Shown here: positions 9,315 to 29,234 of the stretch, piece after piece
Layout: each line of letters begins with the position of its first letter
How positions within the stretch are numbered: position 1 is the first letter of the stretch
Source of the DNA: Actinomycetes bacterium
GTDB taxonomy: Bacteria; Actinomycetota; Coriobacteriia; Anaerosomatales; Anaerosomataceae
NCBI GenBank assembly: GCA_021373175.1
Contig: JAJFTE010000014.1
Span: 1-43,680 of the forward strand
Reading direction: 5' to 3'
Length of the DNA stretch: 43,680 nucleotides
Program-made: the position numbers and the translations under genes
The notes under the pieces: generated by a model
Database searches by the model: none
What the model saw: the letters and a program-made list of their open reading frames with translations, nothing else
What the model was told of the DNA's origin: nothing

Positions 9315-10268
9315 ATGCTCCGCTACATTCTTAGACGGATCATGCAGTTCATCCCTGTATTTTTCGGGGTGACCCTGCTCCTGTTCTTGATCACTACCAT
9401 TCTGCCTGGCGATCCGGTCGCTCTTCGGGCGGGTGAGAAGAAGTTGCCTCCCGCCGTTTACGCAGAGATGCGTCATGCGTACGGCCTCGATAAGCCCTGG
9501 TACGCGCAGTACGTGGATTATCTCGGTAAGCTTTCCAAGGGCGATCTGGGCACATCTATAGCCAGCGGGCGCAAAGTGGTGGACATCTTCAAGGAGACGT
9601 ATCCATACACCTTGAGACTTGCGCTTGCGGCCATTGTCTTGGAAATCCTCGTCGGCATCGGTGCAGGTCTGGTCTCGGCGATCAAGCAATATACGATCTG
9701 GGACACGCTCGTGACGCTCTCGACGTCCATTCTCGTCGCGCTTCCCGTGTTCTGGCTCGGTATCGTGTTGCAGTACATCTTCGGAATCCAGCTGAACATC
9801 TTGCCGATCTCGGGGGCGAGCAGTGCCCGCTTCACCGCTTTTGCGCACCTCATCCTCCCGGCTATCACACTGGCGTCCGTTTCGACCGCGTACGCGGCCC
9901 GGATCATGAGGAGCCAGCTGCTTGAGGTCCAGAGCCAGGACTATGTTCGCACAGCGTACGCGAAGGGACTTTCTCCCTCGCGTGTGCTCTGGGGGCACGA
10001 GATGAAGAACGCCCTCATTCCTGTCGTGACGTTCATTGGTCTCGACCTGGGAGCGATGCTGTCCGGTGCCATTCTCACAGAGACCATTTTCAACTGGCCC
10101 GGCGTCGGTTTCACGATCTACCGCGCGATCGGTGCGCGCGACTTTCCGGTGGTGTTCGGTGGCGTCACGCTCGTCTTGCTGGCCGTGCTGTTCGTAAACC
10201 TGCTCGTCGATGTCTCGTATGCATTCCTCGATCCGCGGATTCGCTACGGCGCCGCGAATGAGGGGTGA
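9315..10268 (+). CDS. oppB: Peptide ABC transporter permease (OppB/DppB type)
   Basis: The 317-residue product is an integral membrane permease of the binding-protein-dependent transport family. It begins with MLRYILRRIMQFIPVFFGVT, a typical OppB N-terminal helix, followed by the LPGDPV segment and several hydrophobic helices. The cytoplasmic coupling motif (EAA loop), which contacts the ATPase, appears around YVRTAYAKGLSPSRVLWGHE (about residues 212-231). With OppC it forms the membrane channel. The ATG at 9315 follows AAAGGAT. It ends next to the start region of oppC. Confidence 0.93.
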   Translation: MLRYILRRIMQFIPVFFGVTLLLFLITTILPGDPVALRAGEKKLPPAVYAEMRHAYGLDKPWYAQYVDYLGKLSKGDLGTSIASGRKVVDIFKETYPYTLRLALAAIVLEILVGIGAGLVSAIKQYTIWDTLVTLSTSILVALPVFWLGIVLQYIFGIQLNILPISGASSARFTAFAHLILPAITLASVSTAYAARIMRSQLLEVQSQDYVRTAYAKGLSPSRVLWGHEMKNALIPVVTFIGLDLGAMLSGAILTETIFNWPGVGFTIYRAIGARDFPVVFGGVTLVLLAVLFVNLLVDVSYAFLDPRIRYGAANEG

Positions 10269-21864: not shown

Positions 21865-22167
21865 CTACTGCACGCAGCTGGAGTGCTTGAGGAAGACCTT
21901 GATCGCGTCGTCGATCAGTTCGTCGCGAGACTTGACGCCGTCCTCGGCAAGACACGTCTTCATCGAGTAGCCGATGATGTGAAGACCGACCTGGTTGAGC
22001 GCTGACTTCGCCGCCATGATCTGTGTGAGCACCGCGTCGCAGTCCTGGCCGGTATCGATCATCGATTGGAGTCCGCGGATCTGCCCCTCGAGCCGCTTGA
22101 GCCTGTTGACGATCTTGCGTCGTTCTTCATCGTTGCCGATCGATTCACGGATCGGTGATGTGTCCAA
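21865..22167 (-). CDS. CsoR-family repressor, CstR-like (persulfide sensor candidate)
   Basis: The 100-residue product is a DUF156/CsoR-family repressor, all-helical, with RLKRLEGQIRGLQSMI as its helix-1 signature. Aligned by eye with copper-sensing CsoR, the first ligand cysteine is kept (Cys43) and the last is kept (Cys72), but the histidine four residues before it is a serine (Ser68). That Cys-x-Cys pattern without histidine, and the segment DCDAVLTQIMAAKSAL, resemble the persulfide sensor CstR rather than copper CsoR. I infer a thiol/persulfide sensor. The TTG at 22167 follows AGGGAA. A palindromic operator overlaps its own promoter, so it is probably autoregulated. An extra cysteine (Cys98) lies near the C-terminus. 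Confidence 0.85.
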   Translation of the reverse strand: MDTSPIRESIGNDEERRKIVNRLKRLEGQIRGLQSMIDTGQDCDAVLTQIMAAKSALNQVGLHIIGYSMKTCLAEDGVKSRDELIDDAIKVFLKHSSCVQ

Positions 22168-22220: not shown

Positions 22221-22249
22221 AGTATACCCCCAGGGGGTATGGTGGGCAA
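22221..22249 (-). promoter_or_regulatory. cstR-like promoter with internal palindromic operator
   Basis: On the minus strand TTGCCC (22249-22244) and TATACT (22226-22221) are 17 bases apart. The palindrome ATACCCCCTGGGGGTAT (22240-22224 on that strand) fills the spacer and shares its last three bases with the -10 box. A repressor bound here would block RNA polymerase. It lies between the repressor gene and the divergent EamA gene and could affect both. Confidence 0.75.
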
Positions 22250-23389: not shown

Positions 23390-24784
23390 GTGGAGCTCAG
23401 CCAAAGGCCCGAACTCAGGCAGAAGGTCACCTTGTCGCCCCAGGTCTACCAGGGGCTCACTATTCTTGCCATGCCAATCGTCGAACTCCAGACCTTCGTA
23501 GAGACAGAGCTGCTTGAGAATCCGGTGTTGGAACTCGAGGAGGACGAGCCGGAGCCTGCCGAGCAGGACGACGATCGCTCAGAAGAGCCCGAGGAAGAAC
23601 GTGCTTGGGATGAGTGGCTCGACCAGTACGACGATCTCGAGCGCCTTGACTCGGGTTCGCCTCGCGATCCGAGTCAGGAAGACATCAATGCCGACGAATT
23701 CGTCGGTGGCCTGCAGACGTTCGATGACTACCTCCTCGATCAGCTTGGCATGCTCGATATCTCCGAGGATGTGGCTCGGGCGGGCCGGGCGATCATCGGT
23801 TCGCTGGACGATGACGGCCTCTTCGTGGGTGACTCCGCGGAGATCGCGAGCATCGCGCACGTCAGCTCGGCCGTCGCTGAGGCCGCGCTGGACGTGGTTC
23901 AGCAACTTGACCCCCCGGGTGTGGGCGCCCGCAACGTCCGAGAAGCCCTGAAGATCCAGGCGGTCTATCTGGGAATCGACACGCCACTGGTGATCGCGCT
24001 GATCGATCGCCATCTGGAGTCGGTCGCTTCGAACCATACGCGGAAGATCGCCCGTGCCGAACACGTGACCGAAGACGAGGTGCGCGAAGCGGTGGAGCTT
24101 TTGCGCCAGCTTAACCCGCGGCCAGCCGGGGCGTTTTCGCCGGGACGGTCTCCGTCGTACGTGATCCCCGATCTCACGTTGCGCCGCTTCGGGGATGAGT
24201 GGCTCATCATCCCTAACAACGATGCTGTCCCGGCATTGAGGGTGAGTCCGCGATATCGTCAGATGTTGCGGTCACAGTCGACCGTTGACGACGCCACACG
24301 CAAGTACCTTAAGGACAAGATCCGGTCGGCCGAGTCATTTATGCGCAATGTGGATCGCCGCAGGGATACGGTCACTCGCATCGCAGAGATCATCCTCGAG
24401 ACCCAACGCGACTTCTTCGAAGATGGCCGAGGTGATCTACGTCCGTTGCGATTGGAAGACGTGTCGAACGAGATCGGCGTTCATCTGAGCACGGTAAGCC
24501 GCGGCGTCACGGGTAAGTACATGGCGACTCCATACGGCCTGTTCGAGCTTAAGCACTTCTTCTCCGGTGGCTACCGTACCTCGAGCGGAATGGACGTGGC
24601 GGCTACGACGGTGAAGCGCCGAATCCGCGAGCTGCTTGAAGCCGAGGACACCACGCGGCCGCTGTCAGATCAGAAACTCGCTGAAGCACTGCATGCCGAA
24701 GGCGTCGATGTGGCCCGACGGACCGTGGCGAAGTACCGTGAAGAGATAGGTATCGAACCTTCGTGGGCAAGGAAACGCCGATGA
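23390..24784 (+). CDS. rpoN: RNA polymerase sigma-54 factor
   Basis: The 464-residue product is a full sigma-54. Region I (about 1-50) has QKVTLSPQVYQGLTILAMPIVELQTFVE with the LENPVLEL end; region II is strongly acidic; the core-binding domain (about 100-300) contains LDPPGVGARNVREAL; the DNA-binding part has STVSRGVTGKYMATPYGLFELKHFFS; and the RpoN box ARRTVAKYRE (442-451) is exact. It directs polymerase to -24/-12 promoters and needs an AAA+ activator. GTG at 23390 follows GGAGGAG and starts the family homology; an ATG at 23348 would add 14 residues. Its stop overlaps the start of the kinase gene (ATGA). Sigma-54 is rare in Actinobacteria. Confidence 0.96.
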   Translation: MELSQRPELRQKVTLSPQVYQGLTILAMPIVELQTFVETELLENPVLELEEDEPEPAEQDDDRSEEPEEERAWDEWLDQYDDLERLDSGSPRDPSQEDINADEFVGGLQTFDDYLLDQLGMLDISEDVARAGRAIIGSLDDDGLFVGDSAEIASIAHVSSAVAEAALDVVQQLDPPGVGARNVREALKIQAVYLGIDTPLVIALIDRHLESVASNHTRKIARAEHVTEDEVREAVELLRQLNPRPAGAFSPGRSPSYVIPDLTLRRFGDEWLIIPNNDAVPALRVSPRYRQMLRSQSTVDDATRKYLKDKIRSAESFMRNVDRRRDTVTRIAEIILETQRDFFEDGRGDLRPLRLEDVSNEIGVHLSTVSRGVTGKYMATPYGLFELKHFFSGGYRTSSGMDVAATTVKRRIRELLEAEDTTRPLSDQKLAEALHAEGVDVARRTVAKYREEIGIEPSWARKRR

Positions 24785-26325
24785 CGGCTGAGCGGTCCGC
24801 CTCTCAGCGTGAGGGCGACCACCCCGGCCTGGGTGCGCAAGGGCTTATGGCACGCAGGAGCGAGGTGCGCGATGTCGCGCTCATCGTCGCGCTTCTGGGC
24901 GCGATTACCGTCTTGCACCTGTTCACGACGACGTCGGCGCAGGCCATGCCGATGCACTTGCTCTACAGGAAGATGTTCTATCTGCCGATCATGTACGCCG
25001 GCTTCGTGTTTGGGCGGCGCGGAGGCTTTATCACGGCAGTCGCTGCGAGCCTGCTGTTCGCGCTGCATGCGACGATTTCACTGGGAGGGCTTCTCGGCGC
25101 GCACATCGACAACCTCTACGAGATCGTGATGTACCTTACGATCGGTATCATGTTTGGTTGGCTGCGAGACATGTCCGAAGTCAAGACGATGGATCTGCGG
25201 CAGCTCAGCCGACAGCTCGAGGATGCGTACCGCAAACTCGAGGAACGCGCGATCCAGCTTGTCAATATTCAGGACTACACACAGTCCATCTTGCGATCCA
25301 TCACATCGGGCGTCGTAACGGTTGGGCCGGACGGCTCTGTCGCTACGGCGAATCCCGCTGCTGAGCGCATGCTGGGCGTGCGTGAGGAGGACATCGTGCC
25401 GCGTCGGATCGGTACCCTGTTCGCCGACGATGCTGGGCTTGATGAAGGGGTCGCAAAGGTGCTCAAGGGTCGCATACCCAAGTCGGTGAGGGACATGCGG
25501 CTCGTCACACGCGCGGGCAAGGTGCTGCACGTGCAGGCATCCACCTCGAGGATGCGCGATGTGGACGGACGCATTCTGGGCGCTGTCGTCACAATCGAAG
25601 ATGTGTCCGAAGTCAAGGCTCTGACGGATCAACTGATCCGGGCTGATAGACTGGCGGCGATGGGCGAGTTGACGGCTGGCGTCGCGCACGAGGTCCGCAA
25701 TCCCCTCGGCATCATCAGGGCTTCGGTACAGCTGGTGGAGGAGTCGGGGTACGACCGCGATCGCGTGCTTGAGGCAACGAGCGTGATGAAGCAAGAGATC
25801 GACCGTCTCGACCGTGTGATCAAGGCGCTTCTGGACTTTGGGCGGCCTTCGAAGCCGTACTTGCGACTGACCGACATCGGCGAAGTCATCGAAGACGTTG
25901 TGCTGTTCACCCGACGCTTCGCCGGGCAGTCGCACGTGACTATCTCGGTGAACGACGTCAGGGAGCTCCCCCAGATCATGGCTGATCCCGACCAAATGAA
26001 GCAGGTGTTCGTGAACCTCATCTCAAATGCGGTTCAGGCGATGGAGGTCACCGGTGGCATCATCAACGTCAGCGGACGGGCCGACGATGGCTTCCTTTCG
26101 ATCATCGTGTCCGACAATGGCCCGGGAATCCCTGCCGCTGACATCAAGAAGGTGTTCGACCCGTTCTACTCGACTCGCGATGCCGGCACAGGGCTGGGCC
26201 TGACGATCGTGCACCGCATCGTCGATGAACACGACGGGCACATCGAGGTTGTCAGCACGCCAGAGCAAGGGACGAGCTTCACGGTGTCCCTGCCCGTTTA
26301 CCAGACAGGCGAGGAGGAGCGATGA
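24781..26325 (+). CDS. NtrB-like membrane sensor histidine kinase
   Basis: The 514-residue product has three membrane helices in the first 130 residues (about 31-50, 66-98 and 110-128), a short coiled coil (about 138-165), a PAS domain (about 167-280) and a histidine kinase core. The phosphorylated histidine is His303 in ELTAGVAHEVRNPLG; the ATP domain has NLISNAVQAM, DNGPGIP and GTGLGLTIVHRIV. It is expected to phosphorylate the NtrC-like activator encoded next. The ligand for the membrane part is unknown. Its ATG at 24781 overlaps the rpoN stop, and its stop overlaps the next start, so all three are coupled. Confidence 0.93.
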   Translation: MTAERSASQREGDHPGLGAQGLMARRSEVRDVALIVALLGAITVLHLFTTTSAQAMPMHLLYRKMFYLPIMYAGFVFGRRGGFITAVAASLLFALHATISLGGLLGAHIDNLYEIVMYLTIGIMFGWLRDMSEVKTMDLRQLSRQLEDAYRKLEERAIQLVNIQDYTQSILRSITSGVVTVGPDGSVATANPAAERMLGVREEDIVPRRIGTLFADDAGLDEGVAKVLKGRIPKSVRDMRLVTRAGKVLHVQASTSRMRDVDGRILGAVVTIEDVSEVKALTDQLIRADRLAAMGELTAGVAHEVRNPLGIIRASVQLVEESGYDRDRVLEATSVMKQEIDRLDRVIKALLDFGRPSKPYLRLTDIGEVIEDVVLFTRRFAGQSHVTISVNDVRELPQIMADPDQMKQVFVNLISNAVQAMEVTGGIINVSGRADDGFLSIIVSDNGPGIPAADIKKVFDPFYSTRDAGTGLGLTIVHRIVDEHDGHIEVVSTPEQGTSFTVSLPVYQTGEEER

Positions 26326-27671
26326 ACCGGCGCGTGCTGATCGCCGACGACGAGAAGAACATGCGATGGGTGCTCGCAAAGGCGCTCAGCGCCGAGGGTT
26401 ACGAGATCATCGAGGCGTCCGACGGAAAGGAGGCGCTCGCCGCCGTTGCAGAGCAGCCGCCGGATCTCATGGTCCTCGACCACAAGATGCCAGCCCCGGA
26501 CGGCATGGAGGTCTTACGGCGCCTTCGAGCCAAGGGACATGCTTTCCCGATCATCATGCTGACCGCGCACGGAAACGTCACCAGCGCCGTCGAGGCGATG
26601 AAGGCTGGCGCGAGCGAGTACTTGACAAAGCCGTTCGACCTCGAGGAACTAAAGATCAGCATCGACAAGGCGCTCAAGATGAGCGAACTGGCCACCGAAG
26701 TGAACCGGCTCCGGGAAGAGATCGACCACGACCATGACGTTTCCGGCATTGTAGCGGCGGCCCCTGCCATGCTGAGCATCTTGGAGACCACGCGCAAAGT
26801 GGCGCCGACGAGCGCGACGGTCATGATCTACGGCGAGTCGGGGACAGGCAAAGAACTCGTCGCACGAGCCCTGCACACGATGTCCAATCGCGCGAACAGG
26901 CCTTTCGTCTCGGTAAGCGCTGGCGCGCTTCCGGAGACGCTGCTCGAGAGCGAACTGTTCGGCTATGAGAAGGGCGCATTCACAGGGGCTATGCAGGCGA
27001 AGCCAGGCCGTTTCGAGCTCGCGAATGGAGGAACGATCTTCCTCGATGAGATCGGCGACATCAGTCTGGGCGTGCAGGTTAAGCTCTTGCGGGTGCTGCA
27101 GGAGCGGACGTTTGAACGTCTGGGCGGTACGCGAACCATCGAGGTCGACGTGCGGGTGGTGGCCGCGACCAACCGCGATCTGCAACAGCTCATCGCCGAT
27201 GGCACGTTCAGAGAGGACCTGTACTACCGGCTCAATGTGGTGCCCATCACCGTTCCGCCCCTGCGGCAGCGTCCGAGCGAGATCCCGTTGCTTGTTGCGC
27301 ACTTCCTCGAGAAGCAGCATGCGGGCTCGAAGCATATCTCGGCAGAGGCGATGAGCCTGCTCGTGGCGTACCAGTGGCCCGGCAACGTTCGCGAACTCGA
27401 GAACACCATCGAGCGGATCGCTATCCTTTCCAGAAACGACGAGATCGGAGTGGACGACCTGCCCTCGGAAGTCCGCGCGGGCGTGTCGATGCTCGGATCG
27501 GGAGAGCGATGCTTTGTGCTGCCAGAGAGTGGCCTGGATCTCGAGGAAGTCGAACTTGACTTCGTTAAGCAGGCGCTCGAGCGAACCGGCGGAATCATCC
27601 CAAAGGCGGCGAAACTTCTCGGGCTTACCACCAAGACGCTCGAAGCGCGCATGGAACGGTATGGACTGTAG
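26322..27671 (+). CDS. NtrC-type sigma-54 activator (response regulator)
   Basis: The 449-residue product has a receiver domain (about 1-120, phosphorylated Asp53 in LMVLDHKMP, with the switch Lys in LTKPF), an AAA+ domain (about 143-375) and a Fis-type helix-turn-helix (about 405-449). Walker A is GESGTGKE (171-178), the sigma-54-contacting loop is an exact GAFTGA (218-223), Walker B is TIFLDE (238-243). It uses ATP to open sigma-54 promoters when phosphorylated, presumably by the preceding kinase. The coupled order rpoN-kinase-activator forms a complete sigma-54 switch. An exact sigma-54 promoter lies 29 bases after its stop. Confidence 0.96.
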   Translation: MNRRVLIADDEKNMRWVLAKALSAEGYEIIEASDGKEALAAVAEQPPDLMVLDHKMPAPDGMEVLRRLRAKGHAFPIIMLTAHGNVTSAVEAMKAGASEYLTKPFDLEELKISIDKALKMSELATEVNRLREEIDHDHDVSGIVAAAPAMLSILETTRKVAPTSATVMIYGESGTGKELVARALHTMSNRANRPFVSVSAGALPETLLESELFGYEKGAFTGAMQAKPGRFELANGGTIFLDEIGDISLGVQVKLLRVLQERTFERLGGTRTIEVDVRVVAATNRDLQQLIADGTFREDLYYRLNVVPITVPPLRQRPSEIPLLVAHFLEKQHAGSKHISAEAMSLLVAYQWPGNVRELENTIERIAILSRNDEIGVDDLPSEVRAGVSMLGSGERCFVLPESGLDLEEVELDFVKQALERTGGIIPKAAKLLGLTTKTLEARMERYGL

Positions 27672-27700: not shown

Positions 27701-27716
27701 GGCACGAGGATTGCAA
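27701..27716 (+). promoter_or_regulatory. Sigma-54 (-24/-12) promoter, exact consensus
   Basis: TGGCACG (27701-27707), four bases, then TTGCA (27712-27716) match the sigma-54 consensus TGGCACG-N4-TTGCW at every position; the GG and GC cores are ten bases apart as required. Transcription should start near 27727, about 30 bases before the ATG at 27757. It lies just after the sigma-54 activator gene, so the likely target is the zinc ribbon protein and HMA gene that follow. No clear activator-binding repeats were found upstream. Confidence 0.85.
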
Positions 27717-27756: not shown

Positions 27757-28113
27757 ATGCATCCACGGAACGATCGGCGCACGATCATAGGGGTGGCAGG
27801 AGCTGTCGCAGCTGCCGGTGTCGTCGTCGGGCTCGTGTTCGTGGTGAATGCTGATGAGGGGTTCGCGAACTGCACCGGCACCTCGGAATTCGGTTGGCTT
27901 GCACCGTTGCTGGCCGCCTCGATCATCGCAGGGCTCGCCTGGGTGCTGCTCAGTCAGGACCCTCGCAGTCGTGACGACACTACTGCTCCACCGGTCGCAC
28001 AGTGTCCCGAATGCGGCAGGACGGTCCTTGGTCAGTGGCGCATGTGTCCCTACTGCGGAGAGATGCTTGACCAGCGACAGTCGCCCGGTTTGACTACACC
28101 GCAGGGCAAGTAG
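27757..28113 (+). CDS. Small membrane protein with C-terminal zinc ribbon
   Basis: The 118-residue product has two membrane helices (about residues 9-29 and 47-65) and a C-terminal zinc ribbon, CPECGRTVLGQWRMCPYCGE (about 87-106), on the likely cytoplasmic side with about ten following residues. I do not recognise a named family. It starts downstream of the sigma-54 promoter with GGGCGAGGGC as ribosome-binding site, and is followed 22 bases later by the HMA gene, so both are probably sigma-54 regulated. A role in metal or thiol handling is a guess from its neighbours. Confidence 0.8.
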   Translation: MHPRNDRRTIIGVAGAVAAAGVVVGLVFVVNADEGFANCTGTSEFGWLAPLLAASIIAGLAWVLLSQDPRSRDDTTAPPVAQCPECGRTVLGQWRMCPYCGEMLDQRQSPGLTTPQGK

Positions 28114-28135: not shown

Positions 28136-28360
28136 ATGGCTGAATTGGTTACGTCTCGCTTCACCACGACGGGCATGCACTGTCCTTCGTGTGCAATGCT
28201 GATTCAGATGAGCGTCGGTGAACTGGATGGCGTTCAATCTGTGGTGGCTGACAATGTGACCGGTCTGACCGAGGTCACCTATGACGCCGAGAAGGTCTCC
28301 GCGGATGCGGTCGTAGGCGAGATCGTGAAGGCTGGCTACGGCGCTGAGCTTCTCGGCTGA
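28136..28360 (+). CDS. Heavy-metal-associated (HMA) domain protein
   Basis: The 74-residue product is a single HMA domain, with metal-binding MHCPSC (about residues 14-19) in the first loop, then GVQSVVADNVTGLTEVTYD and a final helix-strand EIVKAGYGAEL. Such small proteins act as copper or other soft-metal chaperones, or in some cases thiol-containing partners of CcdA-type membrane proteins. The AGGAG at 28124-28128 precedes the ATG by seven bases. It sits between the zinc ribbon gene and ccdA. It ends 17 bases before the palindromic operator for ccdA. Confidence 0.9.
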   Translation: MAELVTSRFTTTGMHCPSCAMLIQMSVGELDGVQSVVADNVTGLTEVTYDAEKVSADAVVGEIVKAGYGAELLG

Positions 28361-28367
28361 GGCGCAG

Positions 28368-28396
28368 TGGAGTAAAATACCCCCTGGGGGTATAAT
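28368..28396 (+). promoter_or_regulatory. ccdA promoter with palindromic CsoR/CstR-type operator
   Basis: A perfect palindrome ATACCCCCTGGGGGTAT (28377-28393) shares its last three bases with a consensus -10 TATAAT (28391-28396). TGGAGT (28368-28373) is a weak -35 at 17 bases. The operator is identical to that of the CsoR-family gene at 22224-22240 read on the minus strand. Confidence 0.8.
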
Positions 28397-28405
28397 GCGT
28401 GCAGC

Positions 28406-28440
28406 GTGACCAAAGGCCGCCATGTGCGGCCTTTGGTCAC
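28406..28440 (+). promoter_or_regulatory. Perfect 15-bp hairpin in the ccdA leader
   Basis: GTGACCAAAGGCCGC (28406-28420) and GCGGCCTTTGGTCAC (28426-28440) pair at all 15 positions around a CATGT loop. It starts close to the expected transcription start. No T-run follows, so it is more likely a leader structure that stabilises the mRNA or controls translation than a terminator for the HMA operon, though that is also possible. Confidence 0.65.
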
Positions 28441-28487
28441 GCACGACACGCGGAAACAAGAACACGGCCTTGAGGATTGGACGAGAG

Positions 28488-29234
28488 GTGCCAGACGCCA
28501 CGGTGAGCTACCTTGGAGCGTTTCTTGGGGGAGTCTTGTCCTTTCTCTCGCCATGCGTGCTGCCGTTGGTACCCGGGTACTTGTCCTTTATGACCGGGCT
28601 CAGCGCCGGTGACCTGAGTAGCGGCGAGTCGGGGATCCGTCGGATTCTCGTCCCGAGCGCTTTGTTCACGCTGGGGTTCTCGATCGTCTTCATCGCCTTA
28701 GGAGCTGCCGCCGGATTCGCGAGCGGTGTGCTGCGACCGTTCATGATCCGGTACGCTCACCCCATTGGTATCGTTGCCGGGGTTGTCGTCATGCTGGTAG
28801 GCGTCTTCCTGATCGGTGTGATCAAGCTTCCAGGCCTGTACGGTGAGGCGCGGTTCGATCTGTCTAAGTCCCGACGGTTCGGTTGGGGAGCATCGTTCGC
28901 CATGGGGCTTGCCTTCGGGTTCGGGTGGACGCCGTGTGTCGGACCGATTCTGACCGTCGTGCTCGGCATGGCAGCGCGAACGGGAGATGTCGCGCAATCG
29001 GCTGCCACGCTCGCCGTGTACTCGCTGGGTCTGGCCACACCGTTCCTGCTCACAGCGGCGTTCTTCGGCAGGCTGACGGGCGCGCTGGGATGGTTCAACC
29101 GGCACTCCCTGGCGTTGTCGCGCATGGCCGGTGGGGTGCTCGTGCTGATGGGCCTGCTTATAGCGACGGGGCAACTTGGACAGATCTCGGCCTTGATCAC
29201 CAAGGCCCTGCCGTTCCTATCGCGACTCGGCTGA
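28488..29234 (+). CDS. ccdA: CcdA-type thiol-disulfide membrane protein
   Basis: The 248-residue product is a CcdA/DsbD-transmembrane-domain protein with about six helices. The two redox cysteines are present: Cys23 in FLSPCVLPLVPGYLSF and Cys150 in GFGWTPCVGPIL. It passes electrons from cytoplasmic thioredoxin across the membrane to extracytoplasmic thiol proteins, for cytochrome c maturation or metal-protein assembly. No thioredoxin-like or N-terminal DsbD domain is attached. The GTG at 28488 is the best in-frame start near the family N-terminus; the Shine-Dalgarno is weak and GTG at 28503 is possible. It has its own operator-controlled promoter, shared with the thioredoxin gene type. Confidence 0.9.
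   Translation: MPDATVSYLGAFLGGVLSFLSPCVLPLVPGYLSFMTGLSAGDLSSGESGIRRILVPSALFTLGFSIVFIALGAAAGFASGVLRPFMIRYAHPIGIVAGVVVMLVGVFLIGVIKLPGLYGEARFDLSKSRRFGWGASFAMGLAFGFGWTPCVGPILTVVLGMAARTGDVAQSAATLAVYSLGLATPFLLTAAFFGRLTGALGWFNRHSLALSRMAGGVLVLMGLLIATGQLGQISALITKALPFLSRLG

Follow-up and report, generated by a model that had tools for sequence, protein, structure and literature searches.

The window (the whole stretch of DNA that was analysed, 43,680 nucleotides) contains a locus whose genes are arranged in the order csoR-family repressor gene (minus strand), EamA transporter gene, rpoN, PAS histidine kinase gene, sigma-54 activator gene, ZR, HMA, ccdA and SpoIIE-type phosphatase gene. A -24/-12 promoter element (P2) lies between the activator gene and ZR, and another (P1) precedes rpoN. 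The coordinates of these features, and of two small RNAs encoded elsewhere in the genome, are shown in Table 1.

Table 1. Features of the sigma-54 locus and positions of the two unlinked RNA copies
Feature	Position	Strand	Remarks
CsoR/CstR-family repressor gene	21865..22167	-	
CsoR-type operator before csoR	22225..22239	.	
P1	23331..23346	+	-24/-12 element TGGTACG-CAGT-TTGCT before rpoN; conserved
rpoN (sigma-54)	23390..24784	+	AID, CBD and DBD domains
Membrane PAS histidine kinase gene	24763..26325	+	AtoS-like; overlaps the activator gene
Sigma-54 activator gene	26322..27671	+	receiver, AAA+ with GAFTGA, Fis-type HTH
P2	27700..27715	+	-24/-12 sigma-54 promoter element TGGCACG-AGGA-TTGCA (TGGCACGAGGATTGCA)
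P2 predicted transcription start	~27726	+	sequence-based prediction
ZR	27757..28113	+	118-aa protein; two predicted TM segments, then CPxCG...CPxCG zinc ribbon
HMA	28136..28360	+	74-aa heavy-metal-associated domain protein; GMHCPSC motif
CsoR-type operator	28378..28392	.	TACCCCCTGGGGGTA; runs into TATAAT; likely separate ccdA promoter
Perfect 17-bp inverted repeat	28404..28442	+	follows the CsoR-type box; hairpin, either terminator-like or in a 5' leader
ccdA	28488..29234	+	ccdA/DsbD_TM electron-transfer membrane protein; probable GTG start 28488, by comparison with relatives
RNA copy 1	C38:35259-35353	+	R1 match, this genome
RNA copy 2	C26:18022-18117	-	R1 match, this genome

For RpoN, PF00309, PF04963 and PF04552 all scored above cut-off, and TIGR02395 gave 399 bits against a cut-off of 277. 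The GTG that follows GGAGGA was taken as the rpoN start because it lies downstream of P1. The activator, which also carries Walker motifs, matched PF00158 with 244 bits; the four other matches in this genome were weak (~32 bits or less), and we therefore regard it as the only true sigma-54 activator of the genome. Among 61 genomes of the order Anaerosomatales/OPB41 (class Coriobacteriia), rpoN was present in 59, in single copy but for one genome with two, and exactly one strong sigma-54 activator was found in most.

ZR belongs to no named family: Zn_ribbon_3 scored 25.6 bits, just under its cut-off of 27, and there was no NCBIfam match. A relative was found in 56 of the 61 order genomes; C83, C86, C97 and C100 were invariant and C39 nearly so. 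For one genome (G009) an in-frame TGA was reported in the ZR match; the ORF after P2 there encodes an ordinary 106-aa protein in which the four cysteines are all kept. HMA matched PF00403 with 51.3 bits (cut-off 24.8) and failed the CopZ models (43.2 bits against a curated cut-off of 91). Since HMA and ccdA are separated by a CsoR-type operator with TATAAT and by the inverted repeat, ccdA is probably a unit of its own, and its placement inside the sigma-54 operon is doubtful.

The P2 element and its conservation

A preliminary description of this DNA had placed an exact sigma-54 element directly after the activator gene. The sequence matches the consensus in full, at a position one base before the one given (27701-27716). 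As had been stated, exactly 10 bases lie between the core dinucleotides, GG at 27701-27702 and GC at 27713-27714. The element begins 28 nt after the activator stop and ends 41 nt before the ATG of the next ORF, in agreement with the ~40 bases claimed. The exact pattern TGGCACGN4TTGCA occurs once in the 2.15-Mb genome, at P2, and the reversed-pattern control gave no match. With two mismatches allowed, the window held 21 matches against 17 expected, which is chance level, so that it is the exact match, together with conservation, that gives P2 its significance.

Conservation was examined across the order. TGGCAYRN4TTGCA was present in 58 of the 61 genomes, usually once or twice in each (102 matches against 39 for the reversed control, hand-summed over the 61 genomes), and its commonest place was directly 3' of the activator gene. 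When the loci of relatives were aligned, the motif columns were fixed and the flanking columns unconserved. Because the choice of loci partly fixes the motif columns, a weight-matrix scan of 40 loci was considered a fairer test. The matrix was made by hand from the known consensus, with a threshold score of at least 12 for P2. With no motif presupposed in the scoring, 38 of the 40 loci, which represent ~32 genera, had a -24/-12 element in the 160 nt that follow the activator gene. In the control, random 170-nt windows drawn from these loci and including some that cover true sites, 82 of 4000 also scored as positive. The distance from P2 to the start codon was ~55 nt in many loci, with start codons picked by rule. 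HMA was found 3' of the activator gene in 38 of the 40 loci and ccdA in 36.

The two loci lacking P2 (G040 and G051) had no ZR match either. G051 also lacked HMA and an RNA match, and P1 was weak there; G040 lacked an RNA match and kept HMA. The preliminary description had asked for conservation of the element ahead of the orthologous gene pair, which the 38 loci demonstrate, and had named loss of the motif beside retained flanking genes as grounds for refutation. The latter was not seen for ZR, although HMA does persist in G040. It was also conceivable that P2 is a chance match in GC-rich DNA, as the chance-level frequency of the looser motif in the window might suggest. The exact match is unique in the genome, and 38 of 40 loci, from ~32 genera, have an element in the corresponding position between unconserved flanks; this explanation is therefore hardly credible and was rejected. 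By all available sequence tests, P2 is a genuine promoter, and the earlier proposal that the adjacent rpoN-kinase-activator system acts on it to drive the genes for the two-TM zinc-ribbon protein and HMA is well supported by the conservation of the arrangement in 38 of 40 loci.

Predicted autoregulation and the putative wider regulon

An element of the P1 type (TGGTAY-N5-TTGCW) was found ahead of rpoN in 38 of the 40 loci at a score of at least 10. Judged from sequence, it would make the rpoN-kinase-activator operon an autoregulated unit with feedback. A TATACT box lies just upstream of P1 in the window, which suggests a coupled sigma-70 promoter, so that P1 may activate, repress or do both. 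Conceivably, sigma-54 polymerase at P1, and possibly at P2, would mainly be a roadblock over a sigma-70 start, with RpoN keeping its own operon repressed as long as the activator is unphosphorylated. A TATACT/CATAAT box just 5' of P1, in the window and in many relatives of the same family, would place the sigma-70 start inside the element. We nevertheless consider such a roadblock unlikely, as the box is not at that position in other families, the rpoN start lies at a distance from P1 that also suits a sigma-54 start, and no comparable box was noticed upstream of P2. No convincing enhancer site for the activator emerged from synonymous-site conservation in the activator gene or from tests for enriched palindromes and k-mers in the regions preceding P1, P2 and the RNA promoters. 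Upstream of P2, coding sequence suffices to account for the conservation of inverted repeats; the palindromes there are activator coding sequence.

The complete list of strict TGGYAYN5TTGCW sites in this genome comprises P1, P2, the two RNA promoters, a site before a SHOCT gene and two others (C105 and C108). A regulon of one promoter was dropped as an idea; many matches outside the locus precede the RNA family described below. The target picture of the preliminary description thus holds for ZR-HMA and was incomplete, as elements also stand before rpoN, where they are conserved, and before the two unlinked small RNAs. Since the regulon can be listed nearly in full for one genome, a complete sigma-54 circuit becomes directly testable.

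The SHOCT site, a P2-type element (C26:15969, minus strand; L134 near 9653-10016), lies upstream of a gene for a 72-aa SHOCT-domain membrane protein, a possible target seen in this genome only; this assignment is without conservation support. In some relatives, P2-type elements precede small secreted Cys/Met/His proteins (L209, L210, L224, L225, L227 and L229), of which the one tested matched no Pfam family and the L224 copy has an in-frame stop, and proteins with several CxxCH motifs that resemble multiheme cytochromes (L215 and L238). In L213, L214 and L240 the element lies before hemA, and the conserved intervening leader looks structured; no Rfam match was found for it in L213 and L240.

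A sigma-54 system is itself unexpected in this phylum. Actinobacteria have been reported to be without a sigma-54 system (PMC3162934), and Actinomycetota to be effectively without functional RpoN, GC content being suggested as the reason: high GC is proposed to make sigma-54 promoters hard to distinguish from random sequence (PMC12316311). The claim that functional RpoN is absent is wrong for this order, and both it and the GC explanation need revising, because the genomes of the order are GC-rich and yet combine a complete rpoN with a single activator and near-perfect promoters. The sigma-54 DNA-binding domain scored above cut-off in 98 of 398 Coriobacteriia and in 18 of 396 Actinomycetota sampled. 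Strong rpoN matches were also seen in Actinomycetota families outside the class: G424, G616, G655, G681, G721, G750 (f48) and G677 (f96). A search of the open-access literature for OPB41 together with sigma54 found no paper.

A C-rich small RNA family behind -24/-12 elements

The RNAs of this family are ~95 nt long and have two hairpins, the loops of which are rich in C. Ten copies served to build a covariance model (R1), which found the RNA in 58 of the 61 order genomes, mostly with two copies apiece. Under stricter filters, it was present in 66 of 69 order genomes and in none of 329 other Coriobacteriia. One genome (G036) kept P1 and P2 with the RNA undetected.

An upstream element scoring at least 12, or close to it, was found for 86 of 89 RNA copies, and the strong elements start 27-31 nt before the first base of the RNA. 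The threshold was reached by 75 of the 78 copies outside the model-building set and by none of 89 shuffled upstream regions. For both RNAs of this genome the element starts 27-29 nt before the 5' end, which leaves a gap of 11-13 nt. The structure is supported by covariation: 27 of 29 pairs change on both sides, and none of 500 shuffles reached any of the measures. The alignment is fitted to the R1 model; slid controls nevertheless fall far below. CCTCC occurs in 81 of the 89 copies and CCTCCCCCC in 78. The RNA copies adjoin pstB (one of them convergent) and other unrelated genes.

Comparison with Rfam gave only sub-threshold matches, to 6C RNA and alpha-r14, and the family is apparently previously undescribed. 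It fits the description of 6C RNA in having a pair of stem-loops whose loops contain about six C, and assignment to that family (RF01066) was rejected at a best score of 30.9 bits against a gathering threshold of 47. Assignment to alpha-r14 (RF02344) was likewise rejected, with two hairpins instead of three and at most 30.2 bits against 58.8. A family with strong covariation that is tied to a known transcriptional switch could reveal how C-rich RNAs are employed in Actinobacteria.

Proposed circuit and comparison with known systems

Taken together, we consider it probable, on the sequence evidence, that P2 is an output promoter of a dedicated, autoregulated sigma-54 switch whose other outputs would be P1, for feedback, and the two unlinked RNAs. 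In such a circuit, the membrane PAS kinase would sense an envelope or soft-metal/thiol signal and phosphorylate the neighbouring activator, which would then remodel RNA polymerase-sigma-54 at a handful of promoters expected to fire in vivo. P1 would yield the rpoN-kinase-activator operon, P2 the zinc-ribbon membrane protein and the putative metal chaperone HMA (in relatives also CopA and cupredoxins), and the two unlinked promoters the ~95-nt RNAs. The C-rich loops of the latter may pair with G-rich Shine-Dalgarno regions of their targets and repress translation, a mode of action that we propose by analogy with 6C/B11 (PMC10470900) and NfeR1 (PMC10746234). For the order as a whole we lean, with some reserve, towards a minimal sigma-54 circuit, with a single activator and some six promoters, through which a membrane sensor would control a soft-metal/thiol operon and twin anti-Shine-Dalgarno C-rich RNAs.

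The nature of the signal is less clear. From the domains of ZR and HMA and from the operons of relatives we infer a soft-metal function of the pair. In the P2 operons of the 40 loci, CopA was found in 4, a DsbD_2-cupredoxin in 5 and a cupredoxin in 6, which suggests copper or soft-metal handling; the ZR-HMA operon of the window has neither cupredoxin nor CopA genes. The copper reading is not secured, because CopA occurs in the operon in only 4 of 40 loci and the His that serves as copper ligand is missing from the local CsoR. In an alignment to 4m1p this repressor has Ser at that position and keeps both Cys, which leaves the Cys-His-Cys set of copper ligands incomplete. Almost every locus has the CsoR-type operator TACCCCC...GGGGGTA near csoR, and the window has one before ccdA too.

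The circuit may also serve something wider than metals, since the RNA copies adjoin pstB and other unrelated genes. It could thus be real and respond to general envelope, redox/persulfide or phosphate stress, with ZR, HMA and CcdA acting in thiol/disulfide homeostasis. The Ser-for-His exchange beside two retained Cys is as in persulfide sensors, the locus holds ccdA and a thioredoxin, one RNA copy is convergent to pstB, and some relatives have P2-type sites ahead of genes for cytochrome-like proteins and for secreted Cys/Met proteins. Weighed against HMA, found behind the activator gene in 38 of the 40 loci, and against CopA or cupredoxin genes in the operons of several families, a signal other than metal appears possible, at somewhat less than even prospects.

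The preliminary description had also called metal handling under sigma-54 unusual. This was overstated, as the CorSR copper operon of Myxococcus (PMC3707914) and ZraSR are precedents. Metal control by sigma-54 is not new, because copper genes under sigma-54 are known in Myxococcus (PMC3707914); the surprising part is sigma-54 in Actinomycetota at all, together with the small RNAs. In Myxococcus xanthus, the CorSR kinase and sigma-54 response regulator adjoin the sigma-54 promoters of the curA cupredoxin/CopA operon (PMC3707914). The locus described here resembles it in having a kinase and a sigma-54 response regulator beside sigma-54 promoters, with cupredoxin or CopA in the operons of some relatives only. 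It differs in that rpoN lies inside the operon, the phylum is another one, the multicopper oxidase and lipoproteins of CorSR were not seen, and CorSR is without small RNAs. Myxococcus moreover has many sigma-54 activators, compared with one here. The ZraSR system of the enterobacterial zinc/envelope response is a metal-linked membrane kinase with a sigma-54 response regulator, an architecture shared by the present system. ZraSR is autoregulated (PMC12316311), as is predicted here. The activator itself was rejected as ZraR (396.6 bits against a cut-off of 760), and no ZraP was found among the locus genes examined.

Sigma-54 activators that act by way of small RNAs are known from Vibrio, where LuxO drives several similar Qrr RNAs. 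No likeness between the RNAs is claimed; those described here have C-rich loops and come from a different phylum. Borrelia and Chlamydia have one sigma-54 activator each (PMC3162934) and are similar in combining one rpoN, one activator and few targets, whereas in the present system a single, apparently autoregulated operon beside its target contains rpoN together with the kinase and activator genes, with small RNA outputs in addition.

For the RNAs, NfeR1/alpha-r14 is an anti-Shine-Dalgarno RNA that is repressed by NtrC and has no sigma-54 signature (PMC10746234). It shares CCUCC-type anti-Shine-Dalgarno loops and a tie to an NtrC-type regulator with the present family and differs in its third hairpin. 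The 6C RNAs share two hairpins, C runs in the loops and occurrence in Actinobacteria, but the RNA described here has a longer, two-part first stem and a sigma-54 promoter. To our knowledge, mycobacteria do not have sigma-54. In their B11/6C RNA, either loop suffices to repress a target with a G tract in its leader (PMC10470900). If the proposed circuit is correct, the RNAs of this order would correspond, under sigma-54 control, to the 6C RNA that other Actinobacteria have, within a phylum stated to possess no working sigma-54.
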